The notes under the pieces: generated by a model
The model's input: the letters and a program-made list of their open reading frames with translations, nothing else
What the model was told of the DNA's origin: nothing
Databases searched by the model: none
NCBI RefSeq assembly: GCF_008710035.1
Contig: NZ_VYKI01000003.1
Span: forward strand, 1 to 64,000
Length of the DNA: 64,000 nucleotides
Reading direction: 5' to 3'
DNA from: Stenotrophomonas cyclobalanopsidis
Lineage (GTDB): Bacteria > Pseudomonadota > Gammaproteobacteria > Xanthomonadales > Xanthomonadaceae
In this document: positions 5,680 through 64,000 of the stretch, piece by piece
How positions within the stretch are numbered: the stretch's first letter is position 1
Layout: each line of letters starts with the position of its first letter
Position numbers and translations under genes: made by a program

Positions 5680-5889
5680 GGGACTGTCTCCTGCGACGAC
5701 TGCGCGCATGGTGCGCAGCGGGGCGCCATGACCGCGTGAAGCCTGAACAGGGGCAGGTCTGGACGGTTTGCGTCATATCCCGCCCTCAAGCTGCAGCAAT
5801 GGCGGCCGCTAACCCCTCTGGAGGGATACGGCCCGATTGGCACGCCCCTTGCGAATGTTGCCCCTGTGTCATGCCTTTGGAGGCCCGCC

Positions 5890-6054
5890 ATGCACCCCAG
5901 CGATTCCCATACCGATACCGACCACGCCCTGCTGGAGGGCCTGCTGCAGCTGGCAGTGGAAGGTCAGACCGACGACCAGGATTTCCAGCGGATCGGCGAG
6001 GAAGTGTTCTCGCGCCTGCTCGACACCTACGGCCAGAACATCCGGGCGGCCTGA
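5890..6054 (+). CDS. Small acidic hypothetical protein (54 aa)
   Basis: I do not recognise a family. The ATG at 5890 has a consensus GGAGG at 5878-5882, seven bases away. The product is strongly acidic, with a likely helical core (ALLEGLLQLAVEG, then DFQRIGEEVFSRLLDTYG) and no membrane segment or signal. It ends just before an 11-bp perfect hairpin. Strong initiation signals and a non-random helical sequence make it a credible gene. A role as a small regulator or partner protein cannot be deduced. Confidence 0.65.
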   Translation: MHPSDSHTDTDHALLEGLLQLAVEGQTDDQDFQRIGEEVFSRLLDTYGQNIRAA

Positions 6055-57936: not shown

Positions 57937-58053
57937 ATGTGGTATTTCGCCTGGATCCTCGGCACCGGCCTGGCCTCCGCCGTGGCCATCCTCAACGGCA
58001 TGTGGTTCGAATCGCGCGAGCGGAACCGCCTCGAGAAAGAAAACAGTCGCTGA
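57937..58053 (+). CDS. cydX: Cytochrome bd oxidase small subunit CydX
   Basis: 38 residues, MWYFAWILGTGLASAVAILN with a charged tail (ESRERNRLEKENSR). The start MWYFAWILG and single helix are the exact CydX (YbgT) pattern. It is needed for stable cytochrome bd. AAGGAG precedes the ATG at 57937. Confidence 0.95.
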   Translation: MWYFAWILGTGLASAVAILNGMWFESRERNRLEKENSR

Positions 58054-58109
58054 GCCGTAAAAAAAACCTTGCCGCCTTGGCCTTCACACGGTATCTTAGG
58101 CGGCTCCTT

Positions 58110-58186
<77 letters not shown>

Positions 58187-58203
58187 CTTCGGTGGTCGCA
58201 TTG

Positions 58204-58232
58204 AAGCCTGGTGAAGTCTTCCAGGCTTTTTT
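58204..58232 (+). terminator. Intrinsic terminator after tRNA-Pro copy 1
   Basis: AAGCCTGG / CCAGGCTT with a 9-nt loop followed by T4, 18 bp after the tRNA. Confidence 0.85.
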
Positions 58233-58327
58233 GTTCCCTGAAGGATTCCATTGCTTCGGCAGTGTGAAGAAACACCGTTTACCCCTTGCCGCCATCGGGG
58301 TGAATGGATAGAATAGGCGGCTCCCTT

Positions 58328-58404
<77 letters not shown>

Positions 58405-58595
58405 CTTCAGTGGTCACCAAGAAGCCTGGAAGACGACAGTCCTCCGGGTTTTTTTATGCCTGTCGCCCGGCGGCAATCCCGCTCGGCCCCGCCCCTTACA
58501 ATGGACACACTTTCCCCCATCCCTGCACCGGCCTGGCCCGGTGCCGGCGCTGCACGCCCAAGACGCCGCGTGCGCCACCTGCAAGGAGCCGCCGC

Positions 58596-59801
58596 ATGAC
58601 GTCCCCGACTTCGCCCTCACCCTCGCTGCTGCACGGCCGCCTGCTGGCGTTCGCCGCCATCCTGCTGGCGGCGGTCAACCTGCGTACCGCGGTCACCTCC
58701 ATCACTCCGCTGCTGGACGTGCTCGGCCACCATTTCGGCTTCGGCACCACCATGACCGGCGTGCTCGGCATGCTGCCCACCGCCTCGTTCGCGCTGTTCG
58801 GGGTGGCGACCCCGGCCGTGGCCCGGCACCTGGGCCTGGAGCGCACCACCCTGCTGGCGATGACGTTGGCCATGGCCGGCCTGCTGCTGCGCTCCAGCGC
58901 CGGCAACGTCGGCACGCTGCTGCTGGGTTCGGTGATCGCGCTGGCCGGCATGGGCATCGGCAACGTGGTGGTGCCGCCGCTGGTGAAGCGCTACTTCGCC
59001 AACAAGGTCGGCACGATGAGCACGCTGTACATCAGCGTGCTGCAGCTGGGCACGATGACCCCGGCGCTGCTGGCGGTGCCGGTGGCCAATGCCGCGGGCT
59101 GGCGCGTGTCGCTGGGCATGTGGGCACTGCTGGCGCTGGCCGCCGCCCTGCCCTGGCTGATGCTGGCCCGCCGCGCGCCGAAGCCGGTGCAGGACGGCAG
59201 CGATCCGACCGCGCAGCCGCACGGCAGGGTCTGGCGCACGTCGCTGGGCTGGAGCATGACGCTGATGTTCGGCATGACCTCGCTGATGACCTATTCGATG
59301 TTCACCTGGCTGCCGCGCATCGTGGTCGAGGCCGGTGCCACGCCGGCGTTCGGCGGGGTGATGGTGGCGGTGTTCTCGGCGCTGGGCCTGCTGCCGTCAC
59401 TGGTCATTCCGTCGCTGGCGGTGCGCCTGCCGAATCCGTTCCCGCTGGTGCTGATCGGTTTCTTCGCCTTCGTCATCGCCTTCACCGGCCTGCTGCTGGC
59501 ACCGCTGAAGGCGCCGCTGCTGTGGGCGGCGCTGCTGGGCGTAGGCCCGTCGACGTTCCCGCTGGCCCTGACGCTGATCAACCTGCGCACGCGCACCCCG
59601 ACCGGGTCGGCGGCGTTGTCCGGCTTCATGCAGGGCGTGGGATACAGCTTCAGCTGCCTGGGGCCGTTCCTGGTGGGCTGGCTGCATACGGTGAGCGAGG
59701 GCTGGACGCTGCCGTTCGGGTTCCTGTTTGGCTGCGCGGCGCTGATGCTGGGGGCGTCCTGGGTGGCATGCAAGCCGCGGAAGCTGGAAGACCTCTGGTG
59801 A
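58596..59801 (+). CDS. MFS transporter, CynX/NimT type
   Basis: A 401-residue protein with 12 hydrophobic segments. AAVNLRTAVTSITPLLDVL near the start and GVGPSTFPLALTLINLRTRTPTGSAALSGFMQGVGYSFSCLGP are typical of the CynX/NimT (cyanate/2-nitroimidazole) branch. Substrate is not predictable; members export diverse small anions or drugs. The ATG at 58596 has AAGGAG upstream. Confidence 0.88.
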   Translation: MTSPTSPSPSLLHGRLLAFAAILLAAVNLRTAVTSITPLLDVLGHHFGFGTTMTGVLGMLPTASFALFGVATPAVARHLGLERTTLLAMTLAMAGLLLRSSAGNVGTLLLGSVIALAGMGIGNVVVPPLVKRYFANKVGTMSTLYISVLQLGTMTPALLAVPVANAAGWRVSLGMWALLALAAALPWLMLARRAPKPVQDGSDPTAQPHGRVWRTSLGWSMTLMFGMTSLMTYSMFTWLPRIVVEAGATPAFGGVMVAVFSALGLLPSLVIPSLAVRLPNPFPLVLIGFFAFVIAFTGLLLAPLKAPLLWAALLGVGPSTFPLALTLINLRTRTPTGSAALSGFMQGVGYSFSCLGPFLVGWLHTVSEGWTLPFGFLFGCAALMLGASWVACKPRKLEDLW

Positions 59802-60173
59802 CCCTTGCCGGTAGAGTCGTGCTTGCTCGACTGCTCCGACCGAATCCAGTCGAGCTAGCTCGACTCTACACATCGCATCGGCAGCTGCTGACGTAGCGTG
59901 TCCAATCATGACGCGGAGGGGCTGGCTTTCCTGGTGGCGCCAGACCGTAGGCCATCGGGCGGCAGCGACCGCCCGGCGCCCGAGGCGCTGCTGGAAGCGC
60001 CAAAAAGTGCTTTTTTTTCAGGAAGTTGCGACTCGTTTGACCGGTCTGGCGGGACTATTGCGTCTTGGCTGTAACGACAGGCACTGGCCGCCTTGGAGTG
60101 GGGTCGGATACAGTTGGCATGTGATGTGCGTCACACTTTCAGCACATTGATGAAAGGATGCTAAGGGGGTTTC
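59802..60173. promoter_or_regulatory. Upstream region of the pga operon with a perfect CRP/Clp box
   Basis: A 372-bp gene-free region. It holds a SMAG pair (59811-59832 direct, 59848-59869 inverted) and, at 60120-60135, TGTGATGTGCGTCACA, a perfect TGTGA-N6-TCACA palindrome, 38 bp before the pgaA ATG. A TTGGCA at 60114-60119 could be a -35 element; no clear -10 was found. In Xanthomonas relatives this site type is bound by Clp, whose DNA binding is blocked by cyclic di-GMP. The ribosome binding site is AAGGGGG at 60163-60169. Confidence 0.8.
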
Positions 60174-62213
60174 ATGATTGTCCACCGTCCGCTGGCGCTC
60201 TGCGTCGGCCTGGCCTGCGCCGCGCTGGCGTTCGGGGCCCATGCCGCTTCGCCGCCACCCGCCGCCAGCCGCGCTGACCGGCTGGCTGAAATCGGCCACT
60301 ACCGTGACCAGGCCCGCTGGGTCGATGCCCTGGCCGCCATCGAGCGCTCGCAGCTGCAGGAGCCCAACGATCCGCTGCTGTACAAGCTGCAGGTCCTGAC
60401 CCTGGGTGATATCGGCAACGCCGACCGCGCCTGGCGCCTGTACCAGGCGCGGCCCGACCTGTTCGATGCCGACCAGAAGGCACGACTGGAAGCGAACTAC
60501 ATCGCCAAGCGGGTGAACTGGAGCCTGGCCTACGGCCAGAGCGAGGACAGCCGCCTGGACGAAGCCGAAGCCTCGCTGGCGGAAATGGAGCGGTACGTGC
60601 AGCGCGATGGCACGCCGCTGGCGCAGGCGCCGTTGCGCATCCGCATGGACCGCCTGATCCTGCTCAACCGCCTGTCCCGCCATGCCCAGGTGCGCGATGA
60701 AGCGCGCGCCCTGCAGCAGGCGGGCCATGCCCTGCCGGACTACGTGCTGCCGGCAGTGGGCGATTCGATGATGGCCACCCAGCACCCGGACGAGGCGATT
60801 CCACTGCTGGAAGCGGCAGTGAAGAACGATCCTTCGCGGTTCCAGTCGCGTTCCGAACTGGCCTACGCCTACCTCGAGACCGAGCAGGCCGAGAAGGCCA
60901 TCGGCTACCTGGAAACGTGGCAGAAGGACGAACCGGCATGGCGCTGGGGCGGCGGCAAGAGCCCCTACGCGAACTGGGCGCGCTATGAGGCCGACCTCAA
61001 CCTGTCGATGATCCGCGCCTACAGCGGCGATTTATCCACCGCGCAGCGCGAGCTGGAAGCGATGGTCGAGGTCGGACCCGGCAATGGCGGGCTGCAGACC
61101 GCACTGGGCAGCGTCTACCAGATGCGCGGCTGGCCGCGACGGGCGCTGGAGCGCCACCGGATGGCCTACACCCTGGACCCGCGCGATGTCTCGCCGCGGA
61201 TCGGCATGTACGAATCCTATGTGCAGCTGCAGCGCGACGACCTCGCGCGGCCGCTGCACGACGATCTGCTCGAGCGCTACCCCAACCAGCCCTCGGTGCA
61301 GCGCATGGACCGCGACTGGCGCGCGCACCGCGGCTGGCAACTGCAGGCCACGATGGAAGGCGGCCGCAGTTCCGGCGGCGGCGGCAGTTCGCCGCTGGGC
61401 AACGACGACCTGCATTACGGCACCGAAGTAGCCTCACCCATCCTCGACGACCGCTGGCGCCTGTTCGCCTTCGCCGACCGTCGTTCGGTGACCTTCCAGG
61501 ACCAGAAGATCAACCCGCTGTGGATGGGCGCGGGTGCACGCTACCGCTTCGGCCGCGTCGATGCCGAGGCCGCCGTGCTGCGCCCCAACGACAGCATCGG
61601 CGACACCGGCCTGCGCGGCGGCTTCGGCTGGCAGTTCAACGACCAGTGGCACGCTGGCGTGACCGCCGCGCGCAACGATCCGGAAGCCTCGATGCAGGCG
61701 CGCGTGTCGGGCATCACCGCCGACAGCGTGGCGGTGGCGGTTGACTACACCCGCAACGAGCGCACGCACTGGAGCCTGGGTGGCAGCCAGTTCCGCTACG
61801 ACGACGGCAACCGCCGCGACACCCTGAACACCGCGATCGAACAGCGCCTGCTGACCCGCCCGCGCGTGGTGGTCGACGGCCTTGGCAGCCTCTACACCAG
61901 CCGCGGCTCGCTCGACGATGCGCCCTACTTCAATCCCTCGCGCGACCGCTCGGTGGAAATCGGCCTGCGCATCGACCAGCAGCTGTGGCGCCACTACGAG
62001 CGCCACTTCCGGCACCGCCTGACGGTGTCGCTGGGCGACTACTGGCAGGAAGGGTTCGGCAGTTCGCTCATCCCCACGGTGGCCTATCGCCACGAGTGGC
62101 AGTTCGGCCAGGGCAGGATCTTCGAATACGGCGTGAGCTGGTCGCGGCCGGTCTACGACGGCCAACGTGAACGTCACATCGGCTTCGATGCCGCGCTGCG
62201 CTGGGGAGAGTGA
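60174..62213 (+). CDS. pgaA: Poly-beta-1,6-N-acetylglucosamine export porin PgaA
   Basis: A 679-residue protein. It has a signal peptide (cut after AHA), TPR helices (about 30-370: ALAAIERSQLQEPNDPLLYKLQVLTLGDIG, AIPLLEAAVKNDPSRFQSRSELAYAYLETEQ), and a C-terminal beta barrel (about 390-679, many alternating strands). It exports PNAG through the outer membrane and guides it past the deacetylase. E. coli PgaA has 807 residues; here the TPR part is shorter. It is the first gene of the operon, 1 bp before pgaB. Confidence 0.92.
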   Translation: MIVHRPLALCVGLACAALAFGAHAASPPPAASRADRLAEIGHYRDQARWVDALAAIERSQLQEPNDPLLYKLQVLTLGDIGNADRAWRLYQARPDLFDADQKARLEANYIAKRVNWSLAYGQSEDSRLDEAEASLAEMERYVQRDGTPLAQAPLRIRMDRLILLNRLSRHAQVRDEARALQQAGHALPDYVLPAVGDSMMATQHPDEAIPLLEAAVKNDPSRFQSRSELAYAYLETEQAEKAIGYLETWQKDEPAWRWGGGKSPYANWARYEADLNLSMIRAYSGDLSTAQRELEAMVEVGPGNGGLQTALGSVYQMRGWPRRALERHRMAYTLDPRDVSPRIGMYESYVQLQRDDLARPLHDDLLERYPNQPSVQRMDRDWRAHRGWQLQATMEGGRSSGGGGSSPLGNDDLHYGTEVASPILDDRWRLFAFADRRSVTFQDQKINPLWMGAGARYRFGRVDAEAAVLRPNDSIGDTGLRGGFGWQFNDQWHAGVTAARNDPEASMQARVSGITADSVAVAVDYTRNERTHWSLGGSQFRYDDGNRRDTLNTAIEQRLLTRPRVVVDGLGSLYTSRGSLDDAPYFNPSRDRSVEIGLRIDQQLWRHYERHFRHRLTVSLGDYWQEGFGSSLIPTVAYRHEWQFGQGRIFEYGVSWSRPVYDGQRERHIGFDAALRWGE

Positions 62214-62214
62214 G

Positions 62215-64000
62215 ATGGAACGGATGCTTCGAAACCTGATGACCGTGCTGCTGCTGGGGCTGGTGCTGCTGGCCCTGCCGGCCGCTGCCCAGGAGCGCGA
62301 CCTGGATTCGGCCGACAACGGCCTGCTGGTGCTGAGCTACCACGACATCCGCGACGATGTGCGTGAGAAGGGCGATGCCGATGCCTACGCGGTCAGCACG
62401 CAGAACTTCGCTGCGCACCTGGACTGGCTCAGCGCGCACGGCTACCACCCGATCGCGCTGTCGCAGCTGATCAAGGCCTCGCGCGGCGAAGCCCAGCTGC
62501 CGCCGCGGCCGGTCCTGCTGACCTTCGATGATGGCCTGCGCAGCGTCTACAGCCGCGTCTACCCGCTGCTGCGCGCCTACAACTACCCGGCGCTGGTGGC
62601 GGTGATCACCGACTACGTCGACATGGCCCCGGGCCGCACCATCGACTACGGCTACCGCCCGTTCGGCCACGATGATTTCCTGACCTGGCACCAGCTGCGG
62701 GAGATGCAGTCCAGCGGCCTGATCGAACTGGCCAGCCATACCGACAACCAGCACCATGGCGTGCAGTCCAACCCGCAGGGCAACCAGACCCCGGCGGTGA
62801 TCACCCGCGCCTACGATCCGCAGACCCAGCACTATGAGACCGCGCAACAATACGAAAAGCGCCTGCGCGACGATCTCGCGCTGAGCGTCAAGCGCATCCA
62901 GAAGGAACTCGGCGTCACCCCGAAGGCAATCGTTTGGCCGTATGCGGCCTACAACAAGCTGAGCAACGACATCGCCGAACAACTGGGCATGCCGGTGTCG
63001 TTCGACCTGGAAGGCCGCAGCACGCCGGTCACCTCGGACCTGCACGGCCTGGCCCGCCTGCTGGTGACGAACAATCCGAACGTCAGCTCGTTGGCCTTCG
63101 AACTGCGCCGCAATGTCAGCCTGGATGGCACGCGTGCGCTGCAGATCGACATGGATGCGGTCTACGACCCGGACCCGGCACAGCTGGCCCGCAACCTCGA
63201 CAGGCTGATCGACCGCGTCAAGAAGGTGGGCCCGACCCACGTCTATCTGCAGGCCTTCGCCGACCCCGATGGCAACAACACGGCCGACGCGCTGTACTTC
63301 CCCAACCGGCACATGCCGATGCGCGCGGACCTGTTCAACCGCGTGGCCTGGCAGCTGAAGACCCGTGCCGGGGTGAAGGTCTATGCCTGGCTGCCGGTGC
63401 TCGGCTATGAGCTGCCGGATGCGGCGCAGCGCACCGCGCTGGGCATCGCCAGCCCGGAACGCGACGGCATGTACCGGCTGGACTTCACCAAGCCGCAGGC
63501 GCGGCAGATCATCAAGGATATCTACGAAGACCTGGCGATCAATTCGTACTTCGAAGGCCTGCTGTTCCATGACGACGCCTACGTGCGCGACACCGAACTG
63601 GCCCAGCTGCCGCAGGAAGGCGCCGATGGCGGCCGTACCCAGGCGCTGATCGACTTCACCCTGGAGCTGCGCGACACCGCCCAGCGCTGGCGGCCGAAGC
63701 TGGGCACCGTGCGCAACCTGTACGCGCAGCCGGTACTGGAGCCGCAGAGCGCCAGCTGGTTCGCCCAGCGCCTGGACCTGTTCAACCAGGCCTATGACCG
63801 CACCGCGCTGATGGCGATGCCGTGGATGGAAGGCAGCAAGCACCCCGAGCGTTGGCTGGACCGGCTGGTCACGGCGGTGCGCGCGCACGATCCCGACCTG
63901 AAGCACACGATGTTCGAGCTGCAGACCGTGGACTGGCGCACGCAGACGCCGATCAGCGGCCAGCGCCTGCGCGCGCAGGTCCGCCGGCTGCAGGCACAGG
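62215..64000 (+). CDS. pgaB: Poly-beta-1,6-N-acetylglucosamine N-deacetylase PgaB (3' end beyond window)
   Basis: 595 residues visible, still open at the window end. After a signal peptide (MERMLRNLMTVLLLGLVLLA, cut near AAAQ) comes the CE4 deacetylase domain. It has Asp105/Asp106 (LLTFDDGLRS) and the metal His175/His180 (ELASHTDNQHHG), all offset by nine from E. coli Asp114/115 and His184/189. A C-terminal GH153-like domain follows (FEGLLFHDDAYV). E. coli PgaB is a lipoprotein; no lipobox Cys is present here, so this one may be soluble periplasmic or use the uncut signal as anchor. Confidence 0.95.
   Translation, partial: MERMLRNLMTVLLLGLVLLALPAAAQERDLDSADNGLLVLSYHDIRDDVREKGDADAYAVSTQNFAAHLDWLSAHGYHPIALSQLIKASRGEAQLPPRPVLLTFDDGLRSVYSRVYPLLRAYNYPALVAVITDYVDMAPGRTIDYGYRPFGHDDFLTWHQLREMQSSGLIELASHTDNQHHGVQSNPQGNQTPAVITRAYDPQTQHYETAQQYEKRLRDDLALSVKRIQKELGVTPKAIVWPYAAYNKLSNDIAEQLGMPVSFDLEGRSTPVTSDLHGLARLLVTNNPNVSSLAFELRRNVSLDGTRALQIDMDAVYDPDPAQLARNLDRLIDRVKKVGPTHVYLQAFADPDGNNTADALYFPNRHMPMRADLFNRVAWQLKTRAGVKVYAWLPVLGYELPDAAQRTALGIASPERDGMYRLDFTKPQARQIIKDIYEDLAINSYFEGLLFHDDAYVRDTELAQLPQEGADGGRTQALIDFTLELRDTAQRWRPKLGTVRNLYAQPVLEPQSASWFAQRLDLFNQAYDRTALMAMPWMEGSKHPERWLDRLVTAVRAHDPDLKHTMFELQTVDWRTQTPISGQRLRAQVRRLQAQ

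Follow-up and report, generated by a model that had tools for sequence, protein, structure and literature searches.

The palindrome TGTGA-N6-TCACA in front of the pgaABCD operon of Stenotrophomonas cyclobalanopsidis quite probably serves as an operator through which Clp represses a sigma-54 promoter and from which c-di-GMP would release the repressor. This reading was obtained by comparing DNA sequences, starting from a 64,000-nucleotide stretch of one contig (hereafter, the window), and they are best read as repression that c-di-GMP relieves. Repression of biofilm polysaccharide genes by Clp is of a known kind, and what appears to be new is the overlap of the operator with the −12 element of a sigma-54 promoter at pga. 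An earlier note on this DNA had proposed control of pga by Clp, which gains comparative support from the Clp orthologue of the genome, from the conservation of the box, and from the precedent of xagA in Xanthomonas campestris (PMC3528676). That note had overlooked the probable sigma-54 core promoter lying under the box, and the architecture proposed below is more specific than the picture it gave.

The genes pgaA, pgaB, pgaC, and pgaD lie in this order, and all four products score above the NCBIfam equivalog cut-offs; the score of pgaB refers to the part inside the window only, and pgaC (TIGR03937, 641 bits) and pgaD (TIGR03940, 150 bits) come next on the contig. The features of the promoter region and of the operon are collected in Table 1. 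An Rfam search of positions 58000-64000 returned two tRNAs and nothing else, namely tandem tRNA-Pro (CGG) genes at 58110-58186 and 58328-58404 with equal scores. After an MFS gene, an inverted repeat, GTAGAGTCG...CGACTCTAC, occupies 59808-59870, and it presumably resembles the dispersed GTAG/SMAG-type repeat of Stenotrophomonas.

Table 1 Predicted regulatory elements and genes at the pga locus of the window
Feature	Position	Strand	Basis or remark
Clp/CRP operator TGTGATGTGCGTCACA, predicted	60120..60135	.	perfect palindrome; no more than one mismatch in 33/33 Stenotrophomonas regions
Sigma-54 core promoter, probable, TGGCAT-GTGAT-GTGCG	60115..60130	+	matrix rank, nearly frozen spacer
Transcription start (A), predicted 12 nt downstream of the −12 C	60141	+	inferred from consensus
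Shine-Dalgarno sequence of pgaA, AAGGGGG	60163..60169	+	read from sequence
pgaA, PNAG export porin, 679 aa	60174..62213	+	TIGR03939 449 bits (cut-off 366.65), PgaA_barrel
pgaB, PNAG N-deacetylase	62215..64000, continues beyond window end	+	TIGR03938 765.1 bits (cut-off 321.9)

As claimed in the earlier note, an exact match to TGTGA-N6-TCACA (TGTGA-TGTGCG-TCACA), predicted to be a Clp/CRP operator, is found at 60120-60135, and 38 bp separate it from the pgaA ATG at 60174. With up to two mismatches allowed, this box was the sole match in the window, dinucleotide shuffles of which gave an average of 16.9, and ten simulated 64-kb sequences of first-order Markov type contained no perfect box. The 4.2-Mb genome holds two perfect boxes and no instance of the reversed control pattern. 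In 41 Stenotrophomonas genomes the number of perfect boxes ranged from 0 to 6 per genome, which makes the occurrence of one by chance in a given 500-bp region unlikely.

Several observations on boxes elsewhere can be added. Neighbors of TGTGA-N6-TCACA with one or two mismatches number 0 in the window (1-64000) versus about 13-17 expected, and this depletion of near matches exceeds what dinucleotide content accounts for. The other perfect box of the genome, TGTGAACCCCTTCACA (L073 1678-1693; G000:C53:118177-118192), sits 36-87 nt upstream of the possible starts of pilM, a type IV pilus gene (PF11104, 449 bits). A second perfect box that recurs in Stenotrophomonas, TGTGACATAAATCACA, was found in at least 11 genomes, and at the two loci inspected (L136 1139-1154 and L137 1017-1032) 27 nt separate it from the ATG of one and the same gene, which in L136 encodes a major intrinsic protein of the aquaporin family (PF00230, 161 bits).

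The conservation of the pgaA box was surveyed in the 500 bp upstream of each PgaA match. Every Stenotrophomonas locus above the TIGR03939 cut-off was taken, and all 33 upstream regions, including that of the present genome, carry the box, which is perfect in 28 of them and has a single mismatch in 5. For the other Xanthomonadaceae, 56 loci above the cut-off and 22 below it (at least 265 bits) were combined into 78 upstream regions from 19 genera, of which 35 carry the box with no more than one mismatch (23 perfect). Because these regions are related and the matches are not independent events, counts by genus are also given: at least one box occurs in 12 of the 19 genera and none in 7. As a null set, all 29 alternative permutations of the TGTGA half-site were searched in the same way, and they yielded no perfect box in either set and, with one mismatch, a maximum of 1/33 in Stenotrophomonas and 4/78 in the other genera. 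Judged by these counts, the pgaA box is real and conserved and not a product of chance. It was not found, with one mismatch allowed within 500 bp, in 43 of the 78 regions, which means that the model is not universal across the family. In one of these negatives, L058, a long frame lies upstream of the gene, and the region taken may be wrongly placed. The genome G203 (352 bits), kept outside the 78, has neither the box nor a sigma-54 motif and would bring the totals to 35/79 and 29/79, respectively; L030, also kept outside, is a weak match with no box, and G128, G201, G071, and further pieces of G165 and G237 were omitted as fragments or weak matches. Beyond the family, and likewise outside the 78, L029 represents another family of the order and carries a perfect box whose spacer differs; L001, from yet another family, has no box. 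The perfect boxes outside Stenotrophomonas represent 21 different genus-spacer combinations, from which it appears that the box persists there while the spacer turns over. Two side observations belong here. In the S. humi-like Stenotrophomonas loci L025, L028, L039, and L040, the box is retained upstream of pgaA, but its spacer is another one. A pgaA of Stenotrophomonas type, accompanied by the same box, is encoded at L035 4001-6034 on a contig whose record names Bacillus subtilis SK7B5 and is probably contaminated or mislabelled.

Within Stenotrophomonas the bases in and around the box are fixed to an extent that an operator alone would not require of its N6 spacer, which is normally free and is almost frozen in 31 of the 33 upstream regions because the box overlaps a probable sigma-54 promoter. 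Spacer and flanks were analyzed in 33 distinct rows grouped into ten flank clusters (a crude grouping, ungapped, 60 per cent). In the cluster-weighted columns, the TGGCA before the box reaches a conservation of 0.8-0.9, the spacer 0.8-0.9 with 1.0 at its last base, and a TTT lying one base past the box 0.85-1.0, against flanks that mostly show 0.3-0.5 and about 0.7 at most. The TGGCA adjoining the box and the TGC in the spacer occur together in 31 of the 33 regions and are both absent in the other two; the spacer is TGTGCG in 30 of the 31 and TTTGCG in one. That the palindrome arose by chance or is a functionless inherited relic is scarcely credible: the genus is compact and part of the identity is simply inherited, but the flanks have diverged into the ten crude clusters with the block unchanged, and the box stands before pgaA with other spacers (no more than one mismatch) in one or more genomes of 12 of the 19 other genera.

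The stretch 59 nt before the pgaA ATG, TGGCATGTGATGTGCG, is overlaid by the box, and its GG at 60116-60117 (−24) and GC at 60128-60129 (−12) have the exact sigma-54 spacing. A −24/−12 promoter of this type probably lies under the Stenotrophomonas box. At its −12 part, GTGCG, the stretch departs from the full consensus TGGCAY-N5-TTGCW by two mismatches, so that the −12 element is degenerate and may be weak. A sigma-54 matrix was trained on 20 distinct pga sites from other genera, with Stenotrophomonas excluded, and it ranks this spot first of 962 in 31 of the 33 Stenotrophomonas regions, including that of the present genome (L013); in the remaining two, the equivalent spot ranks 360 and 263. 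In the whole window the pga spot is second of 127962. The top match of the window is TGGCACGCCCCTTGCG at 5838-5853 (+), just upstream of an ORF at 5890-6054 (+) of 54 codons with no Pfam match, which could possibly be an RpoN-driven small protein. A weaker sigma-54-like match at 60045 was set aside; its predicted start would put the box near +48, and a runner-up of this type occurs, among the 33 regions, in the present genome only. The genome contains two rpoN genes and, as candidate partners of such a promoter, ten matches to the enhancer-binding protein family PF00158 over the cut-off, seven of them above 200 bits and one encoded close behind an rpoN on contig C45. In the cluster-weighted flank columns of the 33 rows, no upstream element stands out as an activator site.

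It might be argued that Clp represses pga from the box while the promoter is of the sigma-70 type, the TGGCA being a −35-like or extended operator sequence. TTGGCA is indeed similar to a −35 hexamer, and in L025 and L028 the box is present with no sigma-54 motif (up to two mismatches, 700 bp). We nevertheless consider a sigma-70 promoter unlikely, given that the criteria used for its prediction found no match in 59790-60180, that a matrix built from the sigma-54 sites of other genera selects exactly the box spot in 31 of the 33 regions, and that pgaA is preceded by textbook sigma-54 motifs in two Xanthomonas species as well as in several further genera. In the latter, X. vasicola and X. prunicola, the sigma-54 patterns TGGCATATATGTTGCT and TGGCACATATTTTGCT (TGGCAY-N5-TTGCT) are located 62-63 nt before the ATG, a distance matching the 59 nt found here, and neither upstream region has a box (up to two mismatches, 500 bp).

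In the other genera as a whole, a sigma-54 motif (one mismatch allowed) was found in 29 of the 78 upstream regions and not in the other 49, compared with a mean of 0.74 and a maximum of 8 for 200 letter shuffles. In 22 of the 78, from five genera (g35, 16/17; g51, 3/3; g39, 1/1; g48, 1/11; g71, 1/1), the box starts 25-36 bp downstream of the start of a separate sigma-54 motif, a spacing that 100 shuffled motifs reproduced with a mean of 0.02 and a maximum of 1. The genus g35, with genomes of 4.4-6.3 Mb, is probably Lysobacter. Relative to the predicted start, the box of these 22 regions lies at roughly −1 to +26, and that of the present genome, with a start predicted at 60141, covers −21 to −6. 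Both placements lie on the polymerase footprint, so that a Clp dimer bound there should obstruct RNA polymerase.

The close distance between box and gene had led the earlier note to suggest repression rather than activation, and with both box placements on the polymerase footprint repression does seem the better reading. Activation of pga by Clp from the box is judged very unlikely because of geometry: with the spacing of CRP class II activation, transcription would start at 60169, which is the last base of the Shine-Dalgarno sequence and an implausible position, and in the five other genera the box falls within −1 to +26 relative to the start predicted there. Clp does activate other genes, such as manA in X. 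campestris (PMC3528676), but clp mutants form more biofilm in Stenotrophomonas maltophilia and Lysobacter enzymogenes (PMC11049440, PMC9758175).

The identity of the putative repressor was approached through the regulators encoded in the genome. A Clp orthologue (L042) is identical to X. campestris Clp (PDB 3iwz) at 191 of 224 aligned residues (418 bits), and its residues 70, 99, 129, 154, 166, and 170 are the same as in 3iwz. We take residues such as 70, 99, 154, 166, and 170 to bear on c-di-GMP binding, and the genome has a cognate Clp in which the recognition helix and the c-di-GMP residues are conserved. Seven HTH_Crp_2 matches, four of them over the cut-off, were found, and they include one further CRP/FNR-family member of 256 residues (L041), which would leave room for a protein other than Clp at the box. 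This is still less probable than activation by Clp, given the clear orthology of L042 and the fact that FNR-type proteins prefer TTGAT-N4-ATCAA, a sequence different from the pga box.

Under the preferred reading, repression by Clp of a sigma-54 promoter, the palindrome would be the operator of a CRP-family protein whose DNA binding is lost with c-di-GMP, and its N6 spacer would double as the −12 element. At low c-di-GMP levels, Clp on the box would keep sigma-54 RNA polymerase off and pga would be silent, and at high levels the release of Clp would allow an enhancer-binding protein to fire the promoter. A broader version is that a locked sigma-54 promoter together with a Clp operator forms an AND gate for the PNAG operon in much of the Xanthomonadaceae, which would need both an enhancer-binding protein and release of the Clp lock by c-di-GMP; we see the arguments for and against this extension as evenly balanced. 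The Clp operator would have moved along the pga promoter during evolution, and in Stenotrophomonas the two signals would have become fused, the operator spacer being the −12 element and Clp and RpoN competing for the same bases.

CRP cross-regulates sigma-54 promoters, for example, those of dctA and glnA, and the present proposal is similar in that a CRP-family protein counteracts a sigma-54 promoter. The ligand of CRP in that cross-regulation is, however, cAMP, whereas a repressor inhibited by c-di-GMP, with an operator that shares the −12 bases, is proposed here. In Pseudomonas aeruginosa, FleQ controls pel and c-di-GMP relieves the repression, which resembles the relief proposed for pga, likewise a matrix polysaccharide operon; FleQ is an enhancer-binding protein, unlike the CRP-family Clp. 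The E. coli pgaABCD operon consists of the same four genes as here and its PgaCD is activated by c-di-GMP, while its control has been described via Csr and PgaCD and not via a CRP-family operator (PMC12564702). Given this activation of PgaC and PgaD in E. coli, one signal would act both on pga transcription and on the enzyme if the PgaCD of this genome, in which PgaD is present, responds likewise.

The nearest precedent is xagA of X. campestris, where Clp acts at a biofilm polysaccharide operon by repression and loses binding with c-di-GMP. Clp was shown to bind xagA and manA with inhibition by c-di-GMP, mutation of clp raised xagA expression, and mutation of the box raised that of a reporter, although the authors allow for indirect control (PMC3528676). 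The results in PMC8042644 and PMC4624772 point in the same direction as repression of xagA by Clp. The xag operon is separate from pga, and its box, TGTGA-N6-TCGAT, is described in the accessible part of that account with no sigma-54 overlap (PMC3528676); pga is reported to be absent from X. campestris pv. campestris (PMC3609779). A search of eight genomes of genus g26, taken for Xanthomonas, gave no PgaC over the TIGR03937 cut-off, and TIGR03937 combined with TGTGA-N6-TCGAT revealed no clear xag locus in them.

Reports on biofilm agree in part with repression of pga by Clp. Deletion of clp in S. maltophilia FF11 raised biofilm 4.1, 3.1, and 1.7 fold at 15, 25, and 37 degrees, and deletion of rpfC/rpfG lowered it, which is a misfit with a simple scheme; the main text of the article makes no mention of pga (PMC11049440). 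In L. enzymogenes, which has lost FleQ, biofilm is raised in the clp mutant; according to the authors, no c-di-GMP receptor has been identified for biofilm, and Clp is one candidate (PMC9758175). In an rpfG mutant of X. oryzae pv. oryzicola, expression of pga and xag genes rose 3-14 fold, yet pga was not needed for, and did not contribute to, biofilm (PMC3609779). Deletion of rpoN2 in X. campestris decreased biofilm 5.8 fold, in an account that, in its accessible part, mentions neither xag, pga, nor Clp (PMC7280030). pga is absent from the main text of PMC7970052, and the accessible parts of PMC9218911 and PMC6637908 contain nothing on it. Among the matches listed from open full text, no title or abstract opening describes a Clp site or a sigma-54 site at pga of Stenotrophomonas or Lysobacter.

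Control of PNAG by c-di-GMP is already known at the level of the enzyme, and the proposed box would add a transcriptional input in many members of the family. As a direct target of Clp, the pga operator might explain why S. maltophilia and L. enzymogenes form more biofilm when clp is mutated. The overlap of operator and −12 element would also be an unusually simple case in which a repressor and a sigma factor are constrained by the same bases. If the broader AND-gate reading is true, Clp at pga could provide the c-di-GMP receptor step that is missing from the biofilm pathway of the FleQ-less, Lysobacter-like relatives.
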